Shown in pieces: positions 3,899-25,715 of a stretch of 25,715 nt of DNA. A model generated the notes under the pieces. That model ran no database searches. It saw only the letters and a program-made list of their open reading frames with translations, and had not been told where the DNA came from. The number at the start of each line of letters is the position of its first letter. Position 1 is the first letter of the stretch. A program made the position numbers and the translations under genes. The stretch is from a virus, in IMG/VR virus record IMGVR_UViG_3300035698_028165, positions 1 to 25,715 of that record; one strand, 5' to 3'.

Positions 3899-5055
3899 TA
3901 ATTATCTAAGAATCTTAAAGGCATTACTACACCGATATCTTTAGAAACACCCTCTTTCTCAGCCTCCATTATAATAGGTAAAGTATTCTCTTTGTAATAT
4001 ATCTTCACTCTTTCCCCACCTAAATTATTTAAACTCTCTATTAAATATTTTGGATTAAAACATATCATCAATTTATGGTTATTTTTTGTCAAAATAGGTA
4101 TTTTATCTACTAATTGCCCCAAATCTTGATTTTTTACGCTAACTGACAAGCAATCATCATCAAAATGGAACACTATGTGACTTGTTTTCCCATATAATAT
4201 CTCAGCCCTCGTTAGGAACATACTTAATTGATCTTTATTAAACTCTAGTGCTGTATAGTCTTTCTCATATTCACTAAAATATTTATCCACATCTAAAGCA
4301 TCATTTTCTAATAGCCGGAAACATACATAATTCCCTTTATAATCCAAAATGCCTATCTTTGAATTTAATTTAAACCGGACATTAGCACCTTGTTCGCAAT
4401 CTTTTAAAAAAGACAAAACATGAGGAAAACTACTTAACGATATTTTAGTTGCAAAATTCTCAATATTCTCTAATGAAAAATTCAATATTTTGCTTTTTGC
4501 CAATCTTTGACCATCTGTTGCAACGGTTCTAATCTCTTTCATTACCTTGTCATAAGATAGATTAACACAATTTAGTTTAATCCTATTGTCATCATCAGTA
4601 GATGCAGCATAAATCGTCTTCCTGAACAATTCGTATAAAACCTCTGCTTTAATATGACAATCCGTTTCTAATGTCTCTGACATCATACTATCAAATTTAG
4701 GGAATTCCTCTTCTAACAAGTAAGGAATGTTAAATTGTGCGTCTTCTAGCTTAATCTGACATTTTCTTTCATGATCTTTTAACTCAAACACAACATCCGA
4801 ACTAGTGCTAGATGCCAAAATAGACACCAATAAGCTATGCGGCAAACAAAAACTAACATCTTCTCCCTCTGCATAAATATCGCCTAACATTATTACTCGA
4901 ACTATTTCTAAATTATTAGCTTCTATCTTTAACTTATCACCCTTCTTCTCCAACAAAACATTGGATAAAACAGGTAATATATTCTTCGTCTTAATGATTG
5001 TTTGACATTTCTTTAAATTAGTAAGCAATTCGTCTCTTCTCAGCCTAAGATTCAT
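3898..5055 (-). CDS. dnaN: DNA polymerase III beta subunit (sliding clamp)
   Basis: A 385-aa bacterial-type beta clamp, close to the usual ~370 residues. It encircles DNA as a dimer and tethers the replicative polymerase. Family landmarks seen are the N-terminal RRDELLTNLKKCQ with LPVLSNVLLE, the middle-domain signature IRTVATDGQRLAKS, the C-terminal-domain FNPKYLIESLNNLGGERV, and the terminal VVMPLRFLDN, matching the family's conserved MPMRL ending. It is preceded by AAGGAGAGAATA and its first 11 bases overlap the gene upstream. The alpha subunit that would use it (22581-25715) is encoded about 17 kb away in the same orientation. I see no clamp-loader genes in the window, so the host loader or a gene outside is needed. 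Confidence is high from several family motifs in order. Confidence 0.95.
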   Translation of the reverse strand: MNLRLRRDELLTNLKKCQTIIKTKNILPVLSNVLLEKKGDKLKIEANNLEIVRVIMLGDIYAEGEDVSFCLPHSLLVSILASSTSSDVVFELKDHERKCQIKLEDAQFNIPYLLEEEFPKFDSMMSETLETDCHIKAEVLYELFRKTIYAASTDDDNRIKLNCVNLSYDKVMKEIRTVATDGQRLAKSKILNFSLENIENFATKISLSSFPHVLSFLKDCEQGANVRFKLNSKIGILDYKGNYVCFRLLENDALDVDKYFSEYEKDYTALEFNKDQLSMFLTRAEILYGKTSHIVFHFDDDCLSVSVKNQDLGQLVDKIPILTKNNHKLMICFNPKYLIESLNNLGGERVKIYYKENTLPIIMEAEKEGVSKDIGVVMPLRFLDN

Positions 5056-5812
5056 TATTCTCTCCTTCTTTCCCTACTACCTCTGCTACCTCTGCTACCT
5101 TTACTACTTCTGCTACTTTTACTTCCTCTGCTACCTTTACTACTTCTGCTACTTTTACTTCCTCTGCTACTTTTACTTCCTCTGCTACTTTTACTTCCTC
5201 TGCTACTTTTACAATAGGTGCTTTGACCTTTACGACTTCTATTTTAAAATGGCCTACTTTACCAACTAGCTCTTTATTATGATAAGCTGCTGGGAAATGA
5301 GCGTCCAACTCAAATTTATCACCTATCTTCTTGCCAAGTAGCCCCTTATTAAAATCATTTATAACTTGTGGGTCTCCTACCCTAAATCTAAATCCGTTTT
5401 GTTCACTGCCTGGATAAGTTTTACCTTCAACACTTCCAACATAATTAATAACCACAACATCATTTTGTTCAATCACTTTGTCTTCATCTTGCACTTTCCA
5501 TTTTTCATCTTCCATCTGTTCCTTTACAACTTCTAATTTCTCTGTAGTTTTAGTTAGTTCTTGCTTAAAAACTTTATCATCAAAAATTCCTTTTGCTTTA
5601 CACAATGTTATCAAAGTCTCTATCTTACAATCAAACGCTTCAGTTATAAACTTTAACAACCGCTCCCTAATAATATAATTCTCTTTTTTTAATTTATTTA
5701 TTTCCTCTCCCATTCCAGCAACAATCTGCATTAAACCGTCAGATTGTTTTTTTTGTCCCTCTAATATTTGTTTCTTTGTTGGTGCTGGTGTAGCTCTAAA
5801 TCCTTTATTCAT
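5045..5812 (-). CDS. Trigger-factor-type peptidyl-prolyl isomerase domain protein with repeat tail
   Basis: Predicted to bind or isomerise peptidyl-prolyl bonds. Residues 1-110 are mainly helical, with a coiled-coil stretch at about 34-60 and a second at 82-108. Residues about 113-197 match the FKBP-like domain of trigger factor: VVVINYVGSVEGKTYPGS, FRFRVGDPQVINDFNKGL (equivalent to the MIPGFEDGI turn), GDKFELDAHFPAAYHNKEL, then GKVGHFKIEVVKV. The ribosome-binding N-terminal and C-terminal chaperone domains of true trigger factor are absent. Residues 201-246 are near-perfect six-residue repeats (VKVAEE or VKVAEV), encoded by an 18-bp-period DNA repeat. Its start overlaps the gene upstream by ATGA and its end overlaps dnaN by 11 bases. 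Its partner is unknown; a chaperone for a replisome or virion protein is possible. Confidence 0.85.
   Translation of the reverse strand: MNKGFRATPAPTKKQILEGQKKQSDGLMQIVAGMGEEINKLKKENYIIRERLLKFITEAFDCKIETLITLCKAKGIFDDKVFKQELTKTTEKLEVVKEQMEDEKWKVQDEDKVIEQNDVVVINYVGSVEGKTYPGSEQNGFRFRVGDPQVINDFNKGLLGKKIGDKFELDAHFPAAYHNKELVGKVGHFKIEVVKVKAPIVKVAEEVKVAEEVKVAEEVKVAEVVKVAEEVKVAEVVKVAEVAEVVGKEGENNES
5075..5212 (-). repeat. In-frame tandem repeat encoding VKVAEE/VKVAEV units
   Basis: About seven copies of an 18-base unit, in the sense strand roughly GTAAAAGTAGCAGAGGAA, run through the 3' end of the isomerase gene. Some copies have GTA in place of the last GAA codon, and the last unit is shortened. Being a multiple of three, copy-number change would alter tail length without breaking the frame. 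The encoded tail alternates Lys, Val, Ala and Glu and could form an amphipathic helix or strand. Such repeats are prone to slippage and recombination, so length may differ between relatives. Confidence 0.9.
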
Positions 5813-6416: not shown

Positions 6417-8318
6417 TCATTTAACTTTTTTTCTCCAATTTTCTTTCCCTTGTCCTACAAATTTTAATTCTTTTGTCTTCTTATCAAAATCCCAACCTTC
6501 AGCTATATAAACAAGCGGCTCGCACCTACAATTGTGTATTACCACACCTCGTGCAATAAAACTTTCATCATCTTCTACTGTTATATCATATAACTTATGC
6601 TTTTTAGAGCTATAAATTCTATGTATCCACTCAATTTTTAATTCTTCAAAATGAAAAGAATGATTAGAATTTTGCAAAACCCTCCCTATATCTTGTTGAA
6701 TTTGTTTTCTATTAGGAACATCAACATATCTTAATACATGCCACCCATTATCTCTTAACAAATCATCCCTACTATCATCATATTCTTTCCTATTTTTATG
6801 CCAATACTCCCCATCATATTCAATATCAATTTTCAATTCTGGAATAGCAATATCAAGACTTTTATTAAACACCCCAAACTCTAATTGAGCAGTAGGGTAT
6901 TCTTTGCGAACTAATCGATATAATTTTATTTGAGGCTTTGAAATTCTCAAATTCCCCTTTAATGCCTTTAATGCCCCCCCATTTAACATATTTTCTTTAT
7001 TTTTTCTTCTATGCTCTGTAGATTGCAAAACTTTTAATGTCTCTTTATAATACCCTTGTTTCCATTTATTACTTACAGTTCTTGCTATTTGATCATAAAC
7101 CCTACTCTTGTTATTTTCACCATGAATACCCGATAAATCTTTAGGTAATTTATACATACATTCGTGGCTACAAGTCCGAGCATCTCTTCCTCCAATTTCC
7201 ATACTTTTGTTGCAAATTTCACATCTTTTTAGTACCTTAATTAAGAAATCACTTTGTTGCAATTCACAAATCTTAACCCACCCTCTTTGAGTCAAAACCT
7301 TATGATCACCTGTTAAAACAAGCTTTCTTATGCCATCAGGATTCCTATTCTCCTTACTAGAATACTTATAGTAAATTTCATATAAAATTTTGTGAGGATT
7401 CGGATAGCCTTTTAAAACACCAACCACCTTTTTAAAATGGCCTTTATGTGTTAAAACAAAATCCCCATTTTGAATGTCCTTAATTTTTACCCACCCCTTT
7501 TTTGTATAAATCACTGTTTTTGGATCTACAACTGAATTTGGATGTGTAGCTGATATTGTAGCCTTCCAATCTCTCGCTTTTCTACCGTAATTATCACCAT
7601 TAGATTGAAGCTCTGATAATTTATATACCTTTGGTGTACCATCTCTATTTAAATAAAATTTCCGACAATAATCACACAAAGCCGCATCATCATGTGCTAC
7701 CTTAAACACATATATGTCTTTAGAGGTTTTCTCTGGATGACGGGCTATTATAGCATCCTGTGACCCTATATTAACAGCTGTTGTCAACTCAGTAGAAACT
7801 ATTCTCTGAAAGTTCCGAAATAAATCTTTTGTCTTATCTCGCATTTCAGAAGCAATAGCATTAGTCATCTTCCTTTTAAGGACACCTTCTTCTAAAATAG
7901 GTCGAATAATACCACTTAATATCTCATTACGATAACCCATATTTAAGTTATTCATTGTTTCAAGGACATGTGTTTGGGTCATATTCTTTAATTTCGATAT
8001 ATAACTACCTGCTGATTCCCTGATATTATCAATAGCATACTTTTCAACATCTGAAAGTATCACTTCTTTTTCTCTCCCCCTTAATTCTTTCAAAGAAATC
8101 TTCGGTGGCTTCGGTACTGGTCTTAATTTCCCTACAAAATAAGCATCTTCTACAAAATTCTCATCCTCTGGAAAAGGTGATAAAATCCCTTTATTAACTA
8201 ACTCATCTATCATTTCTCTGGATAAACCTTCTCGCCCTATCATTTTAATCATAATTCCATCAAAATGATCTTCAATAATCTGCATTATCCTTCTTTTTAT
8301 TTCATCTGTAATTAACAT
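6417..8318 (-). CDS. MuF/SPP1 gp7-type minor head protein interrupted by an intein
   Basis: 633-aa precursor predicted to yield a 298-aa head-morphogenesis protein after splicing. The N-extein (1-261) is helical, with the region typical of the gp7/MuF family (LFRNFQRIVSTELTTAVNIGSQDAI), then YVFKVAHDDAALCDYCRKF. The C-extein (597-633) begins CRCEPL. Joined, they give the family's ATHPNCRCEPL ending, with CDYC (215-218) and HPNCRC probably forming a metal site. Such proteins sit on the portal in the procapsid, and some travel with the DNA. The intein occupies 262-596. The start follows the 72-aa gene's stop directly, with little binding site of its own, implying coupling to that gene and the portal. 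Family assignment is strong; whether splicing is efficient is inferred from intact motifs. Confidence 0.88.
   Translation of the reverse strand: MLITDEIKRRIMQIIEDHFDGIMIKMIGREGLSREMIDELVNKGILSPFPEDENFVEDAYFVGKLRPVPKPPKISLKELRGREKEVILSDVEKYAIDNIRESAGSYISKLKNMTQTHVLETMNNLNMGYRNEILSGIIRPILEEGVLKRKMTNAIASEMRDKTKDLFRNFQRIVSTELTTAVNIGSQDAIIARHPEKTSKDIYVFKVAHDDAALCDYCRKFYLNRDGTPKVYKLSELQSNGDNYGRKARDWKATISATHPNSVVDPKTVIYTKKGWVKIKDIQNGDFVLTHKGHFKKVVGVLKGYPNPHKILYEIYYKYSSKENRNPDGIRKLVLTGDHKVLTQRGWVKICELQQSDFLIKVLKRCEICNKSMEIGGRDARTCSHECMYKLPKDLSGIHGENNKSRVYDQIARTVSNKWKQGYYKETLKVLQSTEHRRKNKENMLNGGALKALKGNLRISKPQIKLYRLVRKEYPTAQLEFGVFNKSLDIAIPELKIDIEYDGEYWHKNRKEYDDSRDDLLRDNGWHVLRYVDVPNRKQIQQDIGRVLQNSNHSFHFEELKIEWIHRIYSSKKHKLYDITVEDDESFIARGVVIHNCRCEPLVYIAEGWDFDKKTKELKFVGQGKENWRKKVK
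6531..7535 (-). mobile_element. Intein with Vsr-like homing endonuclease in the minor head protein
   Basis: 335 residues (262-596 of the precursor). It begins with Ser262 after HPN and ends His595-Asn596 before Cys597, giving the nucleophile, penultimate His, terminal Asn and +1 Cys needed for splicing. Block A is VVDPKTVIYTKKGWVKI, block B is VLTGDHKVLT (TGDH at 336-339), and blocks F/G are LYDITVEDDESFIARGVVIHN. Between B and F lies a putative zinc knuckle (C366xxC369, C383xxxC387), then a Lys/Arg-rich DNA-binding stretch. A PD-(D/E)XK/Vsr-like nuclease core follows at about 463-535: SLDIAIPELKIDIEYDGEYWH, then RDDLLRDNGWHVLRYVD. Candidate catalytic residues are D489, D498, E500, D502 and H507. 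There is no LAGLIDADG or HNH motif. All parts look intact, so both splicing and homing could be active. Confidence 0.9.
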
Positions 8319-8537
8319 TTATAAGCCTGTCTTTAATTCAAGGATTATTTGTTTCACTATTTCAAGATACATCTTTGAAAATGATTTCTCAGCTTCATGA
8401 ACTAAATCTTCCATTAGTTCATCATCATATGTCTCAATAGCTTCTAAAACATCATCATCAGCCAAAGCTTTTAATAATTTTTCTCTGACATCATGTATAC
8501 ATTCATTCTTACCTAATTTTATAATCACTCTAGCCAT
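8319..8537 (-). CDS. Small hypothetical protein between portal and minor head genes (72 aa)
   Basis: MARVIIKLGKNECIHDVREK... A short N-terminal strand (ARVIIKLG) is followed by acidic helices (LADDDVLEAIETYDDELMEDLVHEAEK) and a C-terminal amphipathic helix (MYLEIVKQIILELKTGL). The ATG overlaps the portal stop by one base (TAATG) and its own stop directly abuts the next start, so it is translated in a chain with its neighbours. The position suggests a head-assembly accessory, perhaps an adaptor for portal or minor head protein, but no family is recognised. Confidence 0.65.
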   Translation of the reverse strand: MARVIIKLGKNECIHDVREKLLKALADDDVLEAIETYDDELMEDLVHEAEKSFSKMYLEIVKQIILELKTGL

Positions 8538-10270
8538 TAATCATACCATTCTATCTTTAAAGGTTTCTTTAGTCCTTTTATTTTTTTTAATACTTTTTGG
8601 GCTTTTTTCTTGTCCTTGCCAACAACCGCTTTTATCATTGCTTTCTTAGCTTCTTCTTCTTTTTTTGATGTCTTCTTTTCTTTTACTTCATCATCATACT
8701 CTTCTGACACATCTTCTTCGACTTCTTCCCCTGCATACCCCGCATTTTCTTCACCGTCTGGAGAAAAATCTCCTTCTTCCCCCAAACCTTTTTCTTGCGA
8801 CATATATTGCAAATAAATGGGGTCTAAAATAATATCTCCATACTCCAACTCTTCTTGCCCCATTTCTTTTCTAACTTCATTAATAGTATATGTAGTAGTT
8901 ACTTTCTTTTTAATTCTATCCAATTCTACATCTTCATCTTGAGAATCCAACCCTACAAATTCAAACATATATTGATCTGCTAATTCTTTATCAAATCTAA
9001 CCAAAATATCATCATTCATAAGGTCTTGTAACCAATTTAATAAAGGTCTTAAAATACTATTTCTTGTGTCCTTTAATATTACTTCATTTCTGCTACCACT
9101 GTCTCCTAATGAACCACCACCATCCCTAGATATATCAAAATTAATTTCTGCTGGATTAATTCCATAGACTGCACAAATCAATCTAATCAAGTATGTCATC
9201 CATTGATACCATTCCATGTCCCTATTTGACATAGATGACATTGGCAACCATTCAATACCCTCAGGAGCATTAAACAACAACTGTCTCCAAGCGTTTCTAA
9301 CACCTGCACTTTGTCTCTGTAACATTCTCCGAATACCCTGCATATCCTGCTCAGTTAATTCAGATTTTATATTAAGAATACCATTATTAGCATGACCTTG
9401 TTTGAAAAAAACTTCATTATGGATTTCAGATATTCTATGACTAGCTACCGTATTTAGAAGCCATTCTAATTCCGCTGGTGGATATCCTCTATAAGGAATC
9501 TCAACACTTGGAACTCTATGTTTATATATTAAATCTTCATAAGTATAAGCAGCCATCACTTGACCTTTATATACTTGAACATATTTAATATCTGCGATAT
9601 TCTTTTGTGCTTCTTCTAAATTCTTCAATCTATCAGTATCAGTATTATCTAAATTGAACATCATACCTTTTAAATCTTTGATTTTATCCTTTAAATCTTT
9701 AACTGCATATCGAATAGTTCCTGACGATACAGGGATAAAATAAGCCATCCTTCCTTTTGCCCTAGCCCCAACACATTCTATAGAAACAGGATTATACATC
9801 AAAGTATCTCTAGTAATTAACCTTAGAAAGGTATCAAAATTTCTTCTGTCTTCATTTGGTCTTTGCTCTGTCAAATGTCCCGTATTATTAATATATTTTT
9901 CTATACTTTTAATATCTTGCTTTTCTTTATCCCCTATTTCTCTATCTTTATCTCTTAGTTTAATAACATAACCCACACTATATCTGTCTCGTTGAGGTTT
10001 CGAAAATGATGCAACTCGATTAACTAATTTATTAATAATTGCCGCAACTACCATATCTGAAGTAGCGACTTGCCTTAATATATCAAAAGATATAAGAGCT
10101 GGCTTTTCTTCCCACACACCAGAACTTGTAACTTCTGTGGAATCCATATAAATGGATTTACGCCTAAACGAATAAGAATCGTTAAGCCCACCTTTGGCTT
10201 TATCTAACCAATTGTCCGTTTTAGTGTGTGCAATATCTTTAAGTTTAGAAAACAAATTTTTAGATTTCAT
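8537..10270 (-). CDS. Portal protein
   Basis: 577 aa, a normal length for portals of siphophages and myophages. The portal is the dodecameric ring at one capsid vertex through which DNA enters and leaves. Supporting features are its place after the terminase and before the MuF-type gene, the N-terminal region (DILRQVATSDMVVAAIINKLVNRVASF) typical of portal families, the core LNTVASHRISEIHNEVFFKQG...GILNI, and the later WYQWMTYLIRLICAVYGINPAEI with a Gly/Ser loop (GGGSLGDSGSRNEV) and helix resembling the stem and tunnel-loop region. The last ~90 residues are a highly acidic then highly basic low-complexity tail. AGGAG precedes the ATG by about 8 bases. Which portal superfamily it belongs to cannot be fixed by eye. 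Confidence 0.88.
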   Translation of the reverse strand: MKSKNLFSKLKDIAHTKTDNWLDKAKGGLNDSYSFRRKSIYMDSTEVTSSGVWEEKPALISFDILRQVATSDMVVAAIINKLVNRVASFSKPQRDRYSVGYVIKLRDKDREIGDKEKQDIKSIEKYINNTGHLTEQRPNEDRRNFDTFLRLITRDTLMYNPVSIECVGARAKGRMAYFIPVSSGTIRYAVKDLKDKIKDLKGMMFNLDNTDTDRLKNLEEAQKNIADIKYVQVYKGQVMAAYTYEDLIYKHRVPSVEIPYRGYPPAELEWLLNTVASHRISEIHNEVFFKQGHANNGILNIKSELTEQDMQGIRRMLQRQSAGVRNAWRQLLFNAPEGIEWLPMSSMSNRDMEWYQWMTYLIRLICAVYGINPAEINFDISRDGGGSLGDSGSRNEVILKDTRNSILRPLLNWLQDLMNDDILVRFDKELADQYMFEFVGLDSQDEDVELDRIKKKVTTTYTINEVRKEMGQEELEYGDIILDPIYLQYMSQEKGLGEEGDFSPDGEENAGYAGEEVEEDVSEEYDDEVKEKKTSKKEEEAKKAMIKAVVGKDKKKAQKVLKKIKGLKKPLKIEWYD

Positions 10271-10737: not shown

Positions 10738-12621
10738 TCACGCTAATGCAAACTTTACTTTACCTCCTCCTACTTCTTTTCTTTTTAATTTTCCGTCTTC
10801 TTCTTCGAATTCCGAAGAGTTATCAGCAAACCCTATATGCCCTGTATATAAAGCCATTTCATCCGCTGTAGGAGCAGATTGAGGCAAATGCTTATCATAA
10901 CCAATAGGACTATAATCTAACGATGGTTTTGCGTCTTCCACCATAATATATTTCATCTTAATCATGCCTAAAATACCCACCACTAAATATCTTAGCCCAT
11001 CCATAGCATGATCTCTTTTTTTCCGAATAGTATCTGTCGGCTCATCTAATTCAGGGTCTATCTTCAAACGATAAACCTGCATTTCTTCACCTGATTCTAC
11101 ACAAGAATTATGTATAAATAATTTACTTTCTTTCCTTGAGCCAGGAACTCTCAAATGCTTTCTAACTAATCCTATCCCCCATTTAACATCTTTAGAAATT
11201 TTAGAATATGGTGGATGATCTGTATTAACGACTGAAAAGTATTTCTTAAATTCTTTAATAGCCCCAGGACTTTCTATATCAGGAAACATTTTACTTATCC
11301 CTAAATGTCCCCATCTATGATGTGTTTCTAAAGCAAATTCTGCATCTGACTTGTATTGAGCTACTAACTCGTCCAATATATATATATTATCTTTACCATC
11401 TACTACCCCTAACAAGGCTAAAGCCATATTAAATCCGAAATCCACCCCCAGAAATCTTTTACAATTATGCTTTTCAAATAATTCAATCATGACTTTAATA
11501 TCTAGTTCTACATCTCCATCATATTTTTCCCCCATAAAAATTTCGTGCATTCTATCATATGATATAAAATGTATAGAAGGGTCAAACATCGGATAAACAA
11601 GACCTGAACTAGATGGTTTTTTGTTCAATCGCTGTGCTTTAAAAAACTCAGGGTCATCAGTAAAAAACAATCGTCTAACATCATCAATAGATTGCAAAAA
11701 AGGATTGTCTCTCTTTTGATTTTTTAATCTCCCTAAACAAAACGAAAAGATGCCACACTTATAACAATTTTCATAGGCACTGTATTTGACGTATCTCTCT
11801 CTCTTTTCAAGATTCAACTGGCTATATTCTTTATCGCTTAAAGCGACTAAATCATCTTCATCAGCGTATAACGATGTGTTCTGTTCCCCTGATCTTTCTT
11901 TATCACAATATTGGGTTATTTCTAATTGTCCCCACCTATGAATTCTTAACGGATAATTAACATCCTTCTTTTTCTTATTAATCATTTCTTGAATGTTGCC
12001 AAATGCGTACTTCCTAGAGCTAATACAAATATTTAAAGGACTTTTTCCCATTGCCGGAGATAACATACCCTTTGATTCTATAAAGACTTTCTTGTCTGTA
12101 AGATCAACTTCATCCTGAATTATACTACCATGAAAAGAGTTCACTGCTCTAATTGTTCCTGTTCCAATCTTCAATTGTCTCTTAAACCGACTAATAGTTT
12201 CACTCATTATGGTTTTTATAGCTACATCCTTAACATAGGGCTTATTTAATACTCCCTGAACATACCCATAAGTAACCTTAGATTGATCATAAATAGATGC
12301 CATGTGGAAATAATCCCGCCATCTATCAAATGTTAAAGCTAATAATTCAATTGCAGCACAAGTAAGACTCTTCTGGCCTGATCTACAAGCTATTCCTAAA
12401 ATATTATAATCCTCTAGTTCAACATTTATCTTCATCCCCATCATAGAAGTAAAAATATCCCAAGCAAAATCAAGTGGTGACGAATTCCCCTCTTCTATGG
12501 TCTGAGAAGCTAAATAAATCCCATAATAATACCGGAAATAAATATCTAAATCTTCTTTTGATTGAGGTAAATCCTCAAACATTTTCGAAGCTTCTTCTAC
12601 TGTTAAGCTATTATTTTCCAT
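10738..12621 (-). CDS. terL: Terminase large subunit
   Basis: 627-aa packaging ATPase and nuclease that pumps DNA through the portal and cuts concatemers. The ATPase half shows a terminase-type P-loop at about 78-86 (ACRSGQKSL), Walker B IIQDEVDLT (D170, E171) and a coupling motif ISSRK (200-204). The RNase H-fold nuclease half shows FLGVDFGFNMALALL (D394), a second acidic site around MFPDIESPG (D448) and DHAMDGLRYLV (D541). A small cysteine cluster (C286, C289, C295) lies between the two. The P-loop has Gln where most terminases have Gly before the Lys. The start overlaps the candidate small terminase by 11 bases. Assignment rests on ordered motifs and adjacency to the portal. Confidence 0.92.
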   Translation of the reverse strand: MENNSLTVEEASKMFEDLPQSKEDLDIYFRYYYGIYLASQTIEEGNSSPLDFAWDIFTSMMGMKINVELEDYNILGIACRSGQKSLTCAAIELLALTFDRWRDYFHMASIYDQSKVTYGYVQGVLNKPYVKDVAIKTIMSETISRFKRQLKIGTGTIRAVNSFHGSIIQDEVDLTDKKVFIESKGMLSPAMGKSPLNICISSRKYAFGNIQEMINKKKKDVNYPLRIHRWGQLEITQYCDKERSGEQNTSLYADEDDLVALSDKEYSQLNLEKRERYVKYSAYENCYKCGIFSFCLGRLKNQKRDNPFLQSIDDVRRLFFTDDPEFFKAQRLNKKPSSSGLVYPMFDPSIHFISYDRMHEIFMGEKYDGDVELDIKVMIELFEKHNCKRFLGVDFGFNMALALLGVVDGKDNIYILDELVAQYKSDAEFALETHHRWGHLGISKMFPDIESPGAIKEFKKYFSVVNTDHPPYSKISKDVKWGIGLVRKHLRVPGSRKESKLFIHNSCVESGEEMQVYRLKIDPELDEPTDTIRKKRDHAMDGLRYLVVGILGMIKMKYIMVEDAKPSLDYSPIGYDKHLPQSAPTADEMALYTGHIGFADNSSEFEEEDGKLKRKEVGGGKVKFALA

Positions 12622-14586: not shown

Positions 14587-16443
14587 TTAATTAGTCATTA
14601 AATTACTTATACCTTTGCGTTTTTCTACTTTGTATACTCCATCAAAAAGATTTTGGAATTCTGTCTGATGGTCAATAACCCAAATAAAATCTTTAGACTC
14701 TCGTAATTTCTGTAGAAAAACCATTATTTTTTCTTTCCCATTTTTATCTAACCCTGTGAAACACTCATCTAAACAGATGAAATTAGGAACAGAAGCACTC
14801 CTAACAGCGATAATTTTAGATAAAGCGAAACTAACAGCTAGAATCAACCGAGCTTTTTCCCCACCTGACAACCCTTGGATGTTCCTTTTTTCGTTATCAA
14901 TTAATAATATCGTATCTATTTTTTGTTTTACACTACCTTGAGAGTTCAAAGATTCTATATCAAACCTTAATAAAATATTACCATCGAACATATCCCTTAA
15001 GTATTCTGAAATATAAAAATTAATTTCATTAATGATTTTAGCGAACACAAAAGCCTTTACTCCTTCTCGACCAAAAGCTTTTATTAACAACCCATAAGCA
15101 TTAATATGCTTTTCCGCCTTTTTTAAGACATCATTCTTCTTAACAATCTTAATCTCTTGCTGCTTTATTTCACCCTCCAACTTATCTACAATTTCACCAT
15201 AATTATTGTTTTCACTCTTCTTCTTCTTTATTAATTCATCGTAATTAACAAGGTGCTTTCCTATGTTTTCCATCATTTTATTGAAATTTTGAGTAGCATT
15301 ATTGAAAATATTTTGTGAAGCTATAACTTTAATTCTTAACTTATCTATTTCTTTCTTTTTGCCTTTATTAGCCTCTACAATTACTTTTAATTTCTGAAGA
15401 GCATTCTCTAATACTTTATTCTCATCCTCTAACTGCCCTATCTTTGCTTTTAATGGCTTAACAGAATAGGATAAATGCTCATCTTTTACTTCTTGCATAC
15501 AAGTAGGGCACTTCCCTGCTAAGATCAAATCATTGAATTGTTTTATCTGCTTTCCTAAAATTTGTAATTCTTTATCATTTGATATTTTTTTGACCTGTTC
15601 TTTATTTAATTTTTCATCTGCTAGGTCATCTAAACTTTCCCTTAACTCACTTATTCTATTTTGGGTTTGATCTATTAATTCTACTAATTTACATTCTTCA
15701 TCATATTTCTTCTTAACTTCTTTTTTTTCTTTGCCCAATTCCTTAACTTTGGTCTGGAAATTATTAATATCTTGGTCTCTCATTCCTTCAAAAGACTCTG
15801 ATAACCTTTTCATCTTCATCAATTGATCTTTTTTATCTATAATTCCCTTTTGACAATACCCAATATTCTTAGATAAATCACTCATCTTCTCTTTCATAAC
15901 ATTCAAATCTTTTTTAACTGAATCAGAACAAGTATCAAAAACATATAAATCTAAAATTTCAGTTAAAACATCTTTCTTTTCTTCATCATTAGAAAATAAA
16001 AATTGCTGTACAATATCTGTATTTTGAGAAAAATAAATACTTCGCAAAAATGTCTGTAAACTTAGCCCAATTGTTCTATTGATAAACTGCTGCGTCTCTC
16101 TATTATCTTTCCCATTCTTAATTTGAGTGTTTTTATAAAAATTTAGAATATTAGGATTTCTCGTCCTATGAATAAAATATAAATCTTCACCTCTTTTAAA
16201 AGTCAATTGGATATCAAGCCCCCCCCCACCCCACTGAACAACCTCTTCCAACTTCACTTTCCTTGGTAAATCCCCATAAAGCGCAAAACAAATAGCATCT
16301 ATAACAGCTGACTTGCCTGCACCATTAGAAGTTTCTTCATCGAAATTATATCCATCTATTAAAAACAATCCCTTCTCAAACGATAGATTTAACTCTTTAT
16401 AAGACAAAAAACTCTTTGCCTTTAATTCTACCAAATTTATCAT
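14587..16443 (-). CDS. sbcC: SbcC/Rad50-like ATPase (T4 gp46 type)
   Basis: 618-aa SMC-like ATPase that with SbcD processes DNA ends for recombination-dependent replication. The N-terminal half-domain begins MINLVELKAKSFLSYKE, with a P-loop in NGAGKSAVIDAICFALYG (40-57). Long coiled coils follow on both sides of a zinc hook CPTC (312-315). The C-terminal half has the ABC signature NIQGLSGGEKARLILAVSFAL and Walker B FICLDECFTGLD, then the H-loop VIDHQTEF. The length is close to T4 gp46 and much shorter than cellular SbcC. Residues 72-75 are four glycines encoded through an uninterrupted G9 run, a slippage-prone tract. AAAAAGG lies before the ATG, and the stop of the zinc-ribbon gene falls between them. 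Confidence 0.93.
   Translation of the reverse strand: MINLVELKAKSFLSYKELNLSFEKGLFLIDGYNFDEETSNGAGKSAVIDAICFALYGDLPRKVKLEEVVQWGGGGLDIQLTFKRGEDLYFIHRTRNPNILNFYKNTQIKNGKDNRETQQFINRTIGLSLQTFLRSIYFSQNTDIVQQFLFSNDEEKKDVLTEILDLYVFDTCSDSVKKDLNVMKEKMSDLSKNIGYCQKGIIDKKDQLMKMKRLSESFEGMRDQDINNFQTKVKELGKEKKEVKKKYDEECKLVELIDQTQNRISELRESLDDLADEKLNKEQVKKISNDKELQILGKQIKQFNDLILAGKCPTCMQEVKDEHLSYSVKPLKAKIGQLEDENKVLENALQKLKVIVEANKGKKKEIDKLRIKVIASQNIFNNATQNFNKMMENIGKHLVNYDELIKKKKSENNNYGEIVDKLEGEIKQQEIKIVKKNDVLKKAEKHINAYGLLIKAFGREGVKAFVFAKIINEINFYISEYLRDMFDGNILLRFDIESLNSQGSVKQKIDTILLIDNEKRNIQGLSGGEKARLILAVSFALSKIIAVRSASVPNFICLDECFTGLDKNGKEKIMVFLQKLRESKDFIWVIDHQTEFQNLFDGVYKVEKRKGISNLMTN
16219..16227 (-). repeat. 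Poly-G (G9) tract inside sbcC
   Basis: Nine consecutive G on the coding strand, preceded by TGGGGT, encode Gly73-75 of the SbcC-like protein. A single-base slip would shift the frame early and remove both zinc hook and Walker B. It stands out in a genome this poor in G and C. It may be a natural mutation hotspot or a sequencing/assembly-sensitive site; the current length keeps the gene open. Confidence 0.8.
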
Positions 16444-16446
16444 ATT

Positions 16447-16779
16447 TTAATCCTTTTTAATTTTACCTGTTTTTTGATTTATAAAGTTTGTATTCTTAGC
16501 AATCTTATCTACTCCAAACTTTTCTACCATCTCCCCCAACTCATATTTCTTCTGATATTTTTTAGACCGATCTTTCATTATCCGGTTAATTCCCCTCATT
16601 ACTTTTTTTCTTTTATGCCCATCTAAACAAACATTAACTGTAGGTTCATTAATTAAAGAAGGTAACTTTGTAGAGATATCCCCGCATTTTTGGCAACGCG
16701 TGTCTTTGATATTATCAGGATGACATATTGTAGTAAAAACAATATCACAATTAGTACATTGGAAACGATAAAAAGGCAT
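16447..16779 (-). CDS. FmdB-type zinc-ribbon protein (110 aa)
   Basis: Begins MPFYRFQCTNCDIVF...RCQKCGD, the pattern of the FmdB/CxxC-CxxC regulatory protein family: MP-Y-x-C-x2-C near the N-terminus and a second CxxC about 18 residues on (C8, C11, C29, C32), making one zinc ribbon. The rest (residues 45-110) is basic (GHKRKKVMRGINRIMKDRSKKYQKKYE) and could bind nucleic acid. It is placed between sbcD and sbcC, with short gaps on both sides (17 and 3 bases). Host FmdB proteins are poorly understood putative regulators. Here a role with the SbcCD complex is suggested by position alone. Confidence 0.75.
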   Translation of the reverse strand: MPFYRFQCTNCDIVFTTICHPDNIKDTRCQKCGDISTKLPSLINEPTVNVCLDGHKRKKVMRGINRIMKDRSKKYQKKYELGEMVEKFGVDKIAKNTNFINQKTGKIKKD

Positions 16780-16796
16780 ATTAAGTTTCCCCTTCT

Positions 16797-17852
16797 CTAT
16801 TGATTTAATGCTTTAGCCAGATACTTGTCTTTCCCTAAGCTTAAAACAAATTCTCTGTCTTGATAATCTTTTAAATATAAATTAACATAATCTTCAAACA
16901 TCTGAACTATAGACTGGTTTTCATCAATTTGAATTTGAACAGAGGGGTCTAAAAAATTATATTGAATATAGATATTATCACATAAAGGTAATATATCTTG
17001 TTCCATCAAAGAAATCAAAAAATGTTTGCTTACTTTTTGACAATTTTCTTGAGTATCTCTCATTACAAATCTTACAAAATCCTGTTTATTATATCCCTCT
17101 ACTTTACCTTGAGACAAATCTTCTAAAGACAATTCAAACGAATAATATTGAGGCAAAACATCTTTCAAAGAGAAAAATTCAAACTTCTTATCCATAGAAC
17201 CAGAAATGTATAAGATTTTCTTTTCTTCATTAGCTTCCCCAAAACTATGCGCAAAGGGAGAGCCTAAATACATTATATTCCCCTTTTCTTGAAAAGAATG
17301 AAAATGCCCCGCAATGACTTGACTTTCACCAAAATCTTTAACATCTAAGCCATGCTCTACTTTTATGTTAGTTTGAGAATTAAAACAAAATTCATTAATT
17401 GATTGATGACAAAATAAAAGCTCTAACCCCTCATTAGCTTTTTTTAACTCTTCTAAGAATCCCTTCCTATCATTTCTATAAGGGATAGCCCCTACTCCTG
17501 CATCTATTTGTTTGAATTCATCAACAACCGTAATTTTATCCCAAAAAAATTGACCAAAATCAAAAGAATGAGTAACTAGGTTCAAATTAGTATAATCATG
17601 ATTCCCTAAGACAATATAGACATGCTTTAAATGGGTTTGTAATAATATATGTAATTGCTCAAAAAAGAAATTCTGGACTTCTACTCGAATAATAGATTTT
17701 ATGTCATAGATATCACCAAGAAAAATTAGGCAAATATCAGAACTTTCAGAACATTTCTCTTTTAATATCTCTCCAACATATTCAAAAAACTTTTTAGCGA
17801 TTTCAAGATTAGCCAATTTTAGGTGTAAATCACCTATTACTAAAAATTGCAT
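16797..17852 (-). CDS. sbcD: SbcD/Mre11-like nuclease (T4 gp47 type)
   Basis: 351-aa calcineurin-fold phosphoesterase, the nuclease partner of SbcC. The metal-binding motifs appear in order: GDLHLK (D8, H10), LGDIYD (D47), LGNHD (N84, H85), FCHQS (H149) and AGHFHSFQ (H183, H185). The C-terminal 120 residues form the smaller capping and partner-binding region and match no motif I can name. The frame overlaps the recA-like gene by 23 bases and its ATG is preceded by GGAG inside that gene, so the two are translationally linked. All catalytic residues are present, so activity is expected. Confidence 0.92.
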   Translation of the reverse strand: MQFLVIGDLHLKLANLEIAKKFFEYVGEILKEKCSESSDICLIFLGDIYDIKSIIRVEVQNFFFEQLHILLQTHLKHVYIVLGNHDYTNLNLVTHSFDFGQFFWDKITVVDEFKQIDAGVGAIPYRNDRKGFLEELKKANEGLELLFCHQSINEFCFNSQTNIKVEHGLDVKDFGESQVIAGHFHSFQEKGNIMYLGSPFAHSFGEANEEKKILYISGSMDKKFEFFSLKDVLPQYYSFELSLEDLSQGKVEGYNKQDFVRFVMRDTQENCQKVSKHFLISLMEQDILPLCDNIYIQYNFLDPSVQIQIDENQSIVQMFEDYVNLYLKDYQDREFVLSLGKDKYLAKALNQ

Positions 17853-18891
17853 TATCAGTCTCCATTATTTTAATATATAATTCTTGTTGTAATTGTTCGT
17901 TTTCTTTTACTTTTTGAGAAAATTCAGCCATCCCTACGCCTATTTTTTCTTCATTATAAAAATAAGTTTTACCTTCTAATTTCACAACCCCCGTACCCAA
18001 AGCTAATGCTGATATTTCTTCCCAAGTATCCACTATCCCCTCACTGTACAAAAACTTAAATATTGCTACCCTATTAGGAATACCCACTCGGCTTTTTTCT
18101 AAAACTTTCATCTTGATATAATGGCCAATCTGAGCCTCATTACCATCAACACCTTTTAGTTCAGTGTCAAAAACCTTATTCTTTTTGCCTTCTTTTTTTT
18201 CAAAATGAAGAATAGCATCTGAACAATGTAATAATGCTTGTCCCCCTGTTAATTTAAACTTATTCCCTAATCTTTGTTGGATGGGGTCAAATTGTATTCT
18301 AGATTGAGATAAAAAGACCCAAGTAATATTCCGTTTCCGAGACGGAGTAACAATTAATCTTAATGCTCCAGGCAAATAAGAAGCTAAATCTCCCATGACC
18401 ATTTTTTCAGTATGATCTTTATTGCTTTCTTTGGGTGGAATCAAACCATGTAAACTGTCCACTACACAACCCAAAACTTTCAATCCTTTATCATGGGCAT
18501 CTGTAACTTTTTCTGCAAAAAAATCAAAGATTTCTCTTCCGAAATCTACTGGTTCCACTCTAAACCTTAAATTCCTATCTGCTTCAGTAAATCCATCTGC
18601 TTCAGACATAAAAATATTTAACCAATGTCTACTAAATGATTTCTCTGCATCAAACCAAATAATTATACCGTCTGGGTCATCTTTCAACATTTGAGCACAA
18701 CAAGAAACAGCAAACATAGTTTTCCCTGCTGATTCACCACCAAAAAAAGTATAAAATCGTCCAGGGACTAATCCCCCTTGTAGCGCATAATTAACGGAAG
18801 GGGACATTGTCGGATAATATTTATCAATAATAGGGATGATTGATTCTTCCTTTCCAAACAATTTCTTAAGTAAACTTTTGTCAATAGTCAT
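17830..18891 (-). CDS. recA: RecA-family strand-exchange recombinase
   Basis: 353 aa, about the length of bacterial RecA. It forms filaments on ssDNA and catalyses strand exchange for repair and recombination-dependent replication. Seen are the N-terminal YYPTMSPSVNYALQGGLVPGRFYTFFG, Walker A GGESAGKT (51-58), the catalytic glutamate region WFDAEKSF (E83), Walker B VLGCVVDSLHG (D145), and WVFLSQSRIQFD (L2/sensor region). The Walker A matches bacterial RecA (GPESSGKT) better than T4 UvsX, but the remainder is divergent, as is common for phage recombinases. The C-terminus (LQQELYIKIMETDNAIF) is acidic-helical and overlaps sbcD. AAAGGG precedes the ATG at 18891. Confidence 0.88.
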   Translation of the reverse strand: MTIDKSLLKKLFGKEESIIPIIDKYYPTMSPSVNYALQGGLVPGRFYTFFGGESAGKTMFAVSCCAQMLKDDPDGIIIWFDAEKSFSRHWLNIFMSEADGFTEADRNLRFRVEPVDFGREIFDFFAEKVTDAHDKGLKVLGCVVDSLHGLIPPKESNKDHTEKMVMGDLASYLPGALRLIVTPSRKRNITWVFLSQSRIQFDPIQQRLGNKFKLTGGQALLHCSDAILHFEKKEGKKNKVFDTELKGVDGNEAQIGHYIKMKVLEKSRVGIPNRVAIFKFLYSEGIVDTWEEISALALGTGVVKLEGKTYFYNEEKIGVGMAEFSQKVKENEQLQQELYIKIMETDNAIFSNR

Positions 18892-22580: not shown

Positions 22581-25500
22581 TTATATTGAAAAATCAACAA
22601 ATTTCATTTTATTTACAATAATACCTCTTCGGCCATTATAATCATTAATTGTCCCACTAATTTCCACTAAAGCATTATCATTTAATTGAGGTGAATACGT
22701 ATCATATATACTTGGAAATAGCGTTAAACTTATCGTGCTGTTTTTATTAATCAAATCTATAAAAGCCATTTTATCTTTCTTCTTTGTCTCTATTATTCTT
22801 TTTTCTCCCAAAACTCCTGCTGTTTTAACTTCTTTTTGATTTTCTAAATAAGGTATTTCACTTATTTCTGTAATACCCTTACTAAAATAATCTTTAAAAT
22901 CTTTTTGATAATCTACCTCAAAGATTGTACAACTCTCTGATTTCTTTTTCAAAACCCCAAATCTATTAAGATTCTCAATTTCATTATGACATTCTTCCAA
23001 TATCTTAGATTTTTCTCTTGCTGTTTTTTTAGCTGCCAAAGAATAATAATACTCAATAGCTAACTCTTTATCTTGTTTTTTATCTAACCCCTCTAAAGCA
23101 TTAGCCCAAATAAGATTCAGAAAAACTGCCTTATTTACCACTCTATTATCTACTCTTAAGGAAAAATCCCGTAAAGAATGATAAGGCTGGTTTTTAATGA
23201 TCTCTTCAACGGCTCTCGGACCTACTCGATTAATAAAGCTCAAAGGCATAACTATCTTGCCCTGCTCATAATCTATAGTATAGTTGGCTTGACTTTTGTT
23301 TATATGAGGAAACACAAACATATTTTTGCTTTGACTATAATAATACTTAATTTTATCATTGCTTTCTTCGTTCTCCAATACTGAACACCACCATTCCAAT
23401 GGATAATAAACCTTTAGCCACATACAAATATAAGCTATAATACTATAACTTATAGCATGAGACTTATTAAAACCATATCCACCAAACGAAAATATCAAAT
23501 CCCACAACTTATTAGCTTTAAAACTATCTATGTCTGCATAATTTTTAATAGAATAATTAATAAATTGTTCTTTAGACGACTCTAATAAGTCTATTTGTTT
23601 CTTACCCATTGCTCTTCTTATCGTATCAGCTTCTTCATCAGTAAACCCACCCAATATTTTCACAGCTTCCATCACCTGCTCTTGATAGACTAGAATTCCA
23701 TAAGTATCTTCTAAAACACCAGTCAATGCTTTGTGCGGATAAATAATATTCTCATTACCTGAAGCTCTTGACACATAAGTTTCATGCATTCCCATCCCCA
23801 TAGGGCCAGGTCTACCGACCGAAGACAAAATAGCCAAATCATTAATGCTCTTTAATTTAGTCCGTATTATAATATTTTTAATTAAATCTGAACTAAACTG
23901 GAAAACAGTATCCGTATTGCCTTGCTCAAACTGTTTATAAACCTTACTATCAGAATAATCTAAGCTATAAACATCAATATCTTTCCCATGTTTTTGCTTT
24001 ATTTTATCAAGACAACTAAAAATTTCGTTCAGTGTTTTTAGCTTTAAAATATCATATTTTATCAATCCAGCCTTTTCACACCACTTCATAGTATATTGAG
24101 TGACCCAAGCTCCCTTACCTTTACTCCTTGCCACAGGAACAATATCAAAAACAGGGTCTTTAGACATTACTACTGCTGCCGCATGAACACCTCTTTGCCT
24201 TACTTGACCAATTAATTTCATAACAGCAAACAACAAAGTTTTATTGCCCTGCAAATACTTCTTCAATACTTCGTTTTGATCTAAAGATGTCTTAAGAACT
24301 TCTAATTGATTATCTGCATCAGTATAAGCAACATTCCGAGTTAACATATTTACTTGTTGAGCTGAAATTTCAGGCATTAATATTCTTAATGCATCTTTAA
24401 GTGCCCCTCGCAATTTCAATGTTTGGTTTATACTAATGCAAAAAACATGATCTTGCCCATATTTATGGGTTAAATAGTCTTTTACCTCTTGAGGCTTATC
24501 AAAATCTAAATCTATATCTGGCAATGCTCCTTTTTTCACCCTCGCTAAATTAAGAAATCTAGCAAAAGATAACTTATATTCGATAGGGTCAACTTTAGTT
24601 ATTCCTAAAGCATAGCTTAATAAACACCCTGCTGCTGAACCTCTCCCTGGGCCAATTGCTACATCATTTTTCTGACACCATTCTACAATATCTTCCAATA
24701 CTAAGAAATAAGGCAATAAATCTATAGTTCCATTTTCTCTAATAACTTTCAGTTCTTCGTCTATTCTTTCCACATATACCGGATTTTTTACATCAATAAT
24801 CCCTTTAGCTCTAATCAACTCCCAAACATCAACATTCTCTTTTCCTTCGACTTTAGGTAGATTATAGTTGAATTTTAACTCTACATCTTTACATTTTTCT
24901 AAAATTTCATAAGTATTATCTAAGTAAAGATTAATTTCTTCTTCTGTTAAATACGAATGCTTTTCTTTTAACAAATCTACGAATTCTTTTCTTGTTGGTA
25001 AATAATATGTCTCATAATAATGTCTTCCGGTTTTATAATAATTCATTAATTGGATATCTTGAATTATCTTATAACTTTTTTTAATCATATGCGCATCAGG
25101 TGTAGCTATAAGTTTCACTCCGTACTTGGCTGCACATTGCCTATAATATTTATTAACCACAACTTGCTTATCATATTGTCCTGTTTCTACGAATATTTTT
25201 CGCTTATTGTCCCAATTATGAGTTAAATTACCATGTTGTATTTCTAAATAAAAATCGTCTCCAAATTCTTCTTTGAATCTGATTAAATGACTATTAGCCG
25301 TCTCAGTAATATCATTAATATCGGTACTAGGGACGACATATTTTCCAACTGGACTTGCTACGCAGCCACCCCCTATTACTAACCCCTCTTTATGCTTAAT
25401 TAAATCTTTAAAGAATATTCTTGGCTTATAATAATAATTATCCTCTTGATAAGACAAGTAACTCAACTTGCATATGTTTTTATAACCTTCCCAATTTTTT

Positions 25501-25715
25501 GCCCAAGTAACGATATGACAATAAACATCTTTCTTATCCTTTTTGGGCTCCATTGCTAAATAAAACTCACACCCTAAAATTACAGGATAATTATACTTCT
25601 TACCAAAAGTATACAATTCTAACATTGACGATGCGTCACCATGATCTGTAATCGCAAGTGCAGCAATTCCCTTTTGTTTTGCACCTTTCACCCATTCCTC
25701 AATACCATCTATTCC
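22581..25715 (-). CDS. dnaE: DNA polymerase III alpha subunit, 5' end cut by window edge
   Basis: Replicative polymerase of the bacterial C family. At least 1044 codons are visible; the frame stays open to the right edge, where in-frame GIDGIEEWVKGAKQKG is the family's start of the PHP domain, so only a few N-terminal residues are missing. The GTG at 25691 is not the true start. PHP motifs include ITDHGDAS, ILGCEFYLA, YLEIQHGN and ATPDAHMIKK. The polymerase domain shows GPGRGSAAGCLLSYALG, the catalytic PDIDLDFD (two of the three aspartates), GRPGPMGMG and FNKSHAISYSIIAY. The last ~90 residues form an OB fold (TAGVLGEKRIIETKKKDKMAFI). No separate DnaQ proofreader is seen in the window. Confidence 0.95.
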   Translation of the reverse strand, partial: GIDGIEEWVKGAKQKGIAALAITDHGDASSMLELYTFGKKYNYPVILGCEFYLAMEPKKDKKDVYCHIVTWAKNWEGYKNICKLSYLSYQEDNYYYKPRIFFKDLIKHKEGLVIGGGCVASPVGKYVVPSTDINDITETANSHLIRFKEEFGDDFYLEIQHGNLTHNWDNKRKIFVETGQYDKQVVVNKYYRQCAAKYGVKLIATPDAHMIKKSYKIIQDIQLMNYYKTGRHYYETYYLPTRKEFVDLLKEKHSYLTEEEINLYLDNTYEILEKCKDVELKFNYNLPKVEGKENVDVWELIRAKGIIDVKNPVYVERIDEELKVIRENGTIDLLPYFLVLEDIVEWCQKNDVAIGPGRGSAAGCLLSYALGITKVDPIEYKLSFARFLNLARVKKGALPDIDLDFDKPQEVKDYLTHKYGQDHVFCISINQTLKLRGALKDALRILMPEISAQQVNMLTRNVAYTDADNQLEVLKTSLDQNEVLKKYLQGNKTLLFAVMKLIGQVRQRGVHAAAVVMSKDPVFDIVPVARSKGKGAWVTQYTMKWCEKAGLIKYDILKLKTLNEIFSCLDKIKQKHGKDIDVYSLDYSDSKVYKQFEQGNTDTVFQFSSDLIKNIIIRTKLKSINDLAILSSVGRPGPMGMGMHETYVSRASGNENIIYPHKALTGVLEDTYGILVYQEQVMEAVKILGGFTDEEADTIRRAMGKKQIDLLESSKEQFINYSIKNYADIDSFKANKLWDLIFSFGGYGFNKSHAISYSIIAYICMWLKVYYPLEWWCSVLENEESNDKIKYYYSQSKNMFVFPHINKSQANYTIDYEQGKIVMPLSFINRVGPRAVEEIIKNQPYHSLRDFSLRVDNRVVNKAVFLNLIWANALEGLDKKQDKELAIEYYYSLAAKKTAREKSKILEECHNEIENLNRFGVLKKKSESCTIFEVDYQKDFKDYFSKGITEISEIPYLENQKEVKTAGVLGEKRIIETKKKDKMAFIDLINKNSTISLTLFPSIYDTYSPQLNDNALVEISGTINDYNGRRGIIVNKMKFVDFSI

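Follow-up and report, generated by a model that had tools for sequence, protein, structure and literature searches.

A predicted intein with an in-frame Vsr-like endonuclease core in the MuF-type minor head protein of a phage

Inteins are already known in phages. Elsewhere, PI-MtuI bears a LAGLIDADG domain and gp41-1 has none. The EDxHD endonuclease family was reportedly introduced, along with split inteins, in the 2009 "fractured genes" paper of Dassa, in which the family's endonucleases are said to be free-standing genes between the split-intein halves. EDxHD/Vsr endonucleases in introns are also known (PMC3943268, PMC11878797, PMC12350094), and VSR-type intron endonucleases occur in Bastillevirinae (PMC11878797). 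A survey of inteins in mycobacteriophages lists terminases, nucleases, helicases and nucleotide enzymes among the hosts, and the word "capsid" does not occur in it. No description of a MuF intein was found in the literature we searched (no paper contained both "intein" and "MuF"; the wider literature may differ). Given these two results, we rate as new the insertion site in a virion protein described below. We rate likewise the fusion of an EDxHD/Vsr endonuclease in frame within contiguous inteins, the whole being a new lineage of a familiar kind of element.

We analyzed a 25,715-nt stretch of viral DNA from IMG/VR (hereafter, the window), in which a gene for a MuF-type minor head protein contains an in-frame insert (Table 1). 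On the evidence of its sequence, the insert is very probably a class 1 intein of full length that carries, in frame, a homing endonuclease of the EDxHD/Vsr type; it interrupts the head protein at the conserved HPx/CxC (slashes mark splice junctions) and is expected to splice and to home. It begins with SVVDPKT and ends with GVVIHN, followed by Cys; Ser1 is precursor residue 262 (7533–7535), Asn335 is residue 596 (6531–6533), and the +1 Cys is residue 597 (6528–6530). Removing the 335 residues from the 633-aa precursor leaves an expected host product of 298 aa. The original prediction had the coordinates, Ser1, TGDH, the terminal His-Asn, the +1 Cys and the 298-aa product correct to the base, and all were found in the ORF; the two nuclease-core motifs that it quoted, DIAIPELKIDIEYDGEYWH and RDDLLRDNGWHVLR, are both present in the intein. 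Its description of the intein as intact holds at the level of sequence (an uninterrupted 335 aa). The reading frame of the insert is stop-free, and its GC content (31.0%) and GC3 resemble those of the flanks.

Table 1. Positions of the intein-bearing gene, its parts and two neighboring genes in the window
Feature	Positions	Strand	Basis
Intein-bearing gene of the MuF-type minor head protein (633-aa precursor, intein in frame)	6417..8318	-	ORF; empty homolog L001 299 aa
N-extein, 261 aa, C-terminal end CxxC...ATHPN	7536..8318	-	L001 85% identical, residues 1-261; Herelleviridae, Bacteroides/Chryseobacterium phage homologs
Intein, 335 aa, Ser1 to Asn335	6531..7535	-	PF14890 1.8e-11; 1005-bp gap vs L001; top PDB fold matches are inteins
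Splicing domain, N-terminal part, blocks A and B (Ser1, T75, H78)	7224..7535	-	Family alignment; model secondary structure
Cys4 zinc-finger-like motif, CEIC...CSHEC	7158..7223	-	Four Cys invariant in 11 inteins; zinc binding inferred
Helical linker, probable DNA-binding region	6939..7157	-	pLDDT <50 at intein residues 133-196; length variable among relatives
Putative Vsr-like/EDxHD homing endonuclease core (D228, E239, D241, H246, D253 invariant)	6668..6938	-	PF04480; 3r3p and 3hrl profile matches; alignment columns
Splicing domain, C-terminal part, blocks F and G (D317, E324, H334, N335)	6531..6614	-	TIGR01443 6e-7; family alignment
C-extein, 37 aa, start CRCEPL (+1 Cys)	6420..6530	-	Intein-free L001 C-terminus nearly identical
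Portal protein (context)	8537..10270	-	PF04860 9e-17; phrog_12 4e-43
Large terminase (context)	10738..12621	-	phrog_5653 7e-13

Curated profiles and the fold speak for an intein, and a seamless intein-free allele does so most strongly. Searches against intein models placed the window protein above cutoff for both Pfam Intein_splicing PF14890 (44.5 bits against 35.8) and the NCBIfam intein C-terminus model TIGR01443 (29.5 bits against 15.6). The class 1 features are Ser1, T75-G-D-H78 in block B and H334-N335 followed by Cys+1. In block F, which is less conserved, position F:4 is Asp317, fitting the common Asp, and Glu324 stands where Mtu RecA has its F:13 His. Since His is the commonest residue at F:13 in inteins (PMC4031507) and Ser1 is found only in the window within this set, the rate and efficiency of splicing may be unusual. 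An AlphaFold model of the intein, built from an 11-sequence alignment (mean pLDDT 73.5), has a HINT fold, with high pLDDT across most of the splicing blocks and values below 50 in the linker; a model of the whole precursor (mean pLDDT 47) was not used. Inteins were the top PDB matches in a Foldseek search (gp41-1 at 1.2e-5, DnaB and Mtu RecA; E-values 1e-5 to 1e-3), and the intein-family profile also matches the gp41-1 and Mtu RecA inteins. A feature beyond those of the original prediction is the Cys4 motif (C105, C108, C122 and C126 of the intein), which separates block B from the nuclease and is invariant in the 11 inteins.

The N-extein of the window alone matched no Pfam or PHROG family. 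The host assignment as a MuF-type minor head protein, which the original prediction had made, is supported by the allele that lacks the intein: L001 matches phrog_115 (minor head protein) at 2.5e-8 and, below cutoff, Phage_Mu_F PF04233 at 0.0069. It is also supported by the adjoining portal gene, with the large terminase nearby. Phages of Bacteroides and Chryseobacterium, and Herelleviridae that infect Lysinibacillus and Bacillus, have homologs that lack the intein, with CxxC ... HPxCxC or a close form. The intein lies directly before the first Cys of HPxCxC and thus splits this motif, which probably forms a zinc knuckle. Matches to the first blocks of the intein in Lysinibacillus and Bacillus phages were rejected as inteins because those MuF proteins are intein-free and end in their own C-terminus. 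In the MuF relatives L059–L064, L092, L104, L107, L110, L130 and L131, the CxC pair is replaced (HPNERH, HPNCRD, HPNDRE, HPHCRH); relatives in which the first Cys is missing, and with it the +1 Cys, would presumably be unable to host the window's intein at HPx/CxC. Elsewhere in the head gene region, the window encodes an FKBP-type prolyl isomerase (5045–5812; PF00254, 4.9e-12) with a VKVAEEVKVAEV repeat tail, and L001 has a related ORF without the tail in the corresponding place (6501–7109). An SbcC/SbcD-like pair, a RecA/UvsX-like recombinase and DNA polymerase III alpha lie near the head genes (14587–18891 and 22581–25715).

In one IMG/VR contig, L001, the counterpart of this gene has no insert; its intact product (299 aa, ...GATHPNCRCEPLVYIAEGWDFDKKTKELKF) reads ATHPN/CRC exactly where the window has its 1005 bp. 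This alignment across the junction, which the original prediction had called for, is seamless. The joined window exteins and L001 share 83% DNA identity, with a gap of exactly 1005 bp, in frame, and the 23 bases spanning the junction are identical (GCTACACATCCAAAT before it and TGTAGGTG after it). The upstream genes form one collinear 5.7-kb block (79.6% identity), which stops where the intein starts, at its first base; the downstream genes are collinear too, but only about 67% alike. We consider L001 the strongest single piece of evidence for what appears to be a mobile, precisely bounded insert.

When the window and L001 were compared around the junction, no simple tract of co-conversion emerged: the 60 bp beside it are 73%–84% identical. 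A run of 23 identical codons (7656–7724; codons 199–221) is longer than shuffling expects (p 0.0016) and lies about 120–190 bp upstream of the intein, away from the junction. It is possibly a recombination tract or a sign of constraint near the CxxC motif. Because this unusually similar block does not reach the junction, we draw no conclusion about co-conversion.

Two IMG/VR profile scans combined recovered ten more distinct inteins built in the same way, each in a MuF-type protein of a phage. Eight (L002, L003 and L031–L036) occupy the window's site, directly before the Cys of the HxxC motif. That of L005 is shifted by two residues (HAMCR/C), so that nine of the ten lie at the motif and one elsewhere (L037 duplicates L035, and L004 and L006 are identical to L005 over the gene). 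Seven of the ten host proteins were scanned, and six match Phage_Mu_F above cutoff, L034 having only a weak minor capsid protein 2 match; the hosts L033, L035 and L038 were placed by their sequence. TxxH, the C-terminal HN, the Cys4 motif and the nuclease D/E/D/H/D are invariant in all 11, and the +1 Cys is present in every family member. The original prediction had called this pairing of host and endonuclease uncommon, wording that has to change given ten further such inteins and thus at least eleven distinct ones in MuF-type proteins. Nor is Ser1 a trait of the family: only the window has it, and the other ten, as well as the endonuclease-less inteins at the site, have Cys1. The latter are L039 (140 aa), L040 (173 aa; closely related to L032), L057 (228 aa) and inteins of Gordonia and Vibrio phages. 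Among 50,697 public phage records, there was no place covering 80% of the window intein, and a profile search of cellular genome contigs returned four loci with the nuclease part only and no full intein of this build.

Some of these loci have further features. In L038 (3309–4610), the same type of intein lies elsewhere in a MuF-type protein (FHSER/C GVLYTRTF). L035 (1764–6098; duplicate L037) encodes a 1445-aa portal-MuF fusion with two apparent inteins, one in the portal domain (start CHSEDTEV, end near ITASGN/S, LAGLIDADG-like by eye) and one in the MuF domain with a Vsr-like nuclease; a further ORF (8896–9609) matches the intein-family profile (4.1e-24). The intein-bearing minor-capsid-like protein of L034 (2011–4329) has a C-terminal ADP-ribosyltransferase domain (PF03496, 2.4e-11).

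The putative endonuclease core, of PD-(D/E)XK-like type, was assigned by sequence profiles, since a Vsr fold was absent among the PDB matches listed and the splicing domain dominated the fold search. DUF559 PF04480 matched the window above its Pfam cutoff (1.2e-6; 28.8 bits against 20.6), and the intein-family profile matched both PDB 3r3p, annotated as a "mobile intron protein" (4.4e-6), and the endonuclease-like protein 3hrl. We take 3r3p to be I-Bth0305I. Vsr PF03852 matched three of the 11 family members, the window not among them (NCBIfam vsr gave it only 0.069). Together these matches agree with the Vsr-like homing endonuclease of the original prediction as the probable identity. No LAGLIDADG or HNH Pfam family matched the window at E-values up to 1, and these identities were dropped. 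In the core, D228, E239, D241, H246 and D253 are invariant across the 11 inteins. At the first acidic position of the nuclease, 202 in helix A, the window and five relatives have Gln and five others have Glu, so catalysis by the window nuclease could be altered.

An extein-profile scan yielded 80 loci with 86 recognized MuF ORFs, of which two carried an intein (L057 and L058, with equal protein length and scores). The MuF part of these two shares 39% identity with L001. In the MuF tree, a branch with support 100 joins the window to its empty relative, and L055 and other empty forms fall between the window and L057; intein presence must have changed at least three times, and well-supported branches force two of these changes. 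The intein tree pairs the window with L057 at 91, which is not strong, and allows only weak statements because none of its branches reaches 95%. With the window filled, L001 empty and L057 endonuclease-less, three states of a presumed homing cycle coexist in the MuF clade of the window. In most of the distant pairs, splicing domains are more alike than host MuF domains (window and L031, 44% against 27%; L003 and L034, 50% against 18%). This fits lateral movement, though slower change of the intein could also explain it.

Among the readings that we weighed against a splicing and homing intein, the one with most in its favor, although we consider it unlikely, places the window late in the homing cycle: splicing would be under selection while the nuclease decays and no longer homes. 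Gln202 in place of Glu, a linker shorter than in most relatives (whole intein 335 aa against 348–434 aa) and the loss of the nuclease from L057, L040 and L039 all lean this way. Yet the five invariant nuclease residues listed above and the Cys4 motif are intact in the window, and the very close empty allele L001 fits a recent gain or loss. Five diverged relatives share the Gln, which marks it as a trait of the lineage rather than recent damage.

That the insert is simply a fixed structural domain of this MuF lineage would fit its continuous reading frame, but next to nothing speaks for it once the alleles are compared: L001 refutes it, and 84 of the 86 MuF ORFs, the 85%-identical L001 included, have no intein match. 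The Hint domain might instead be a self-cleaving release module with a nuclease payload and no ligation, like the pretoxin-Hint of MuF polymorphic toxins. MuF toxins with C-terminal payloads do exist (PMC5576092), and PT-HINT PF07591 matches seven of the 11 family members; in the window, though, PT-HINT falls below cutoff and Intein_splicing above it. The element is internal, all family members retain the +1 Cys, and immediately after His-Asn the head protein continues with its own C-terminus, CRCEPLVYIAEGWDF, just as L001 reads. We rejected this very improbable reading because the C-extein resumes after the insert, whereupon the gene ends.

For the preferred reading, a splicing and homing intein, we took the boundaries, domains, empty site and three states of relatives from the sequence, and from these we infer splicing, zinc binding, cutting and homing. 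Ser1 would attack the N-terminal splice junction to give an ester, the N-extein would be transferred to Cys+1, and cyclization of Asn335 would lead to ligation, releasing a scarless 298-aa head protein and, separately, the 335-aa intein. By means of the Cys4 finger, the linker and the nuclease core, the intein would then cut intein-less MuF alleles of co-infecting phages near the site, and repair would copy it into the cut allele. As the insert parts the halves of a probable zinc site and brings along a Cys4 finger, metal or redox conditions might control its splicing. A dedicated intein lineage that exploits CxxC...HPxCxC of MuF proteins, with such splicing gating when usable head protein appears, is a speculative and rather doubtful extension.

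If this reading is right, a virion structural gene, that of the MuF minor head protein, joins the repeated targets of phage inteins. The in-frame EDxHD/Vsr fusion would fill a step from free-standing Vsr-like endonucleases beside split inteins to the usual inteins with an endonuclease. A single gene now offers a filled allele (window), a closely related empty one (L001) and one that has lost the endonuclease (L057), on which the homing cycle can be tested; the splicing domains, with Ser1/Cys+1 and Glu at F:13, are new ones for study.

How does the window element compare with described systems? It has blocks A, B, F and G and the HINT fold in common with Mtu RecA (PI-MtuI) and gp41-1, and differs from such standard class 1 inteins in its F:13 Glu. 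The nuclease core can be aligned by profile with that of I-Bth0305I of the EDxHD/Vsr-like family; known enzymes of this family sit in group I introns, are free-standing or reportedly lie as separate genes between split-intein halves, whereas that of the window is fused in frame inside a contiguous intein. MuF polymorphic toxins (PMC5576092) likewise join a MuF domain to an extra catalytic domain, but their variable domain is C-terminal, after MuF, and that of the window is internal and bounded by splice junctions. Public records also hold MuF inteins, annotated as minor capsid or hint domain proteins, in the Gordonia phages Barsten, Lennon, Nordenberg, Sitar, Thing3 and SchottB and the Vibrio phages 1.265.O and 1.266.O (Barsten, Lennon and Vibrio proteins were compared at full length, the other Gordonia records by match only). 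Like the window, these have a Hint insert at a Cys of the MuF C-terminal motif (PHEVIN/CRC; HPNA/CRS) with an HN/C end; unlike it, they have Cys1 and no Vsr-like nuclease core, and their MuF hosts are distant from that of the window (17%–32% identity in the aligned domain).
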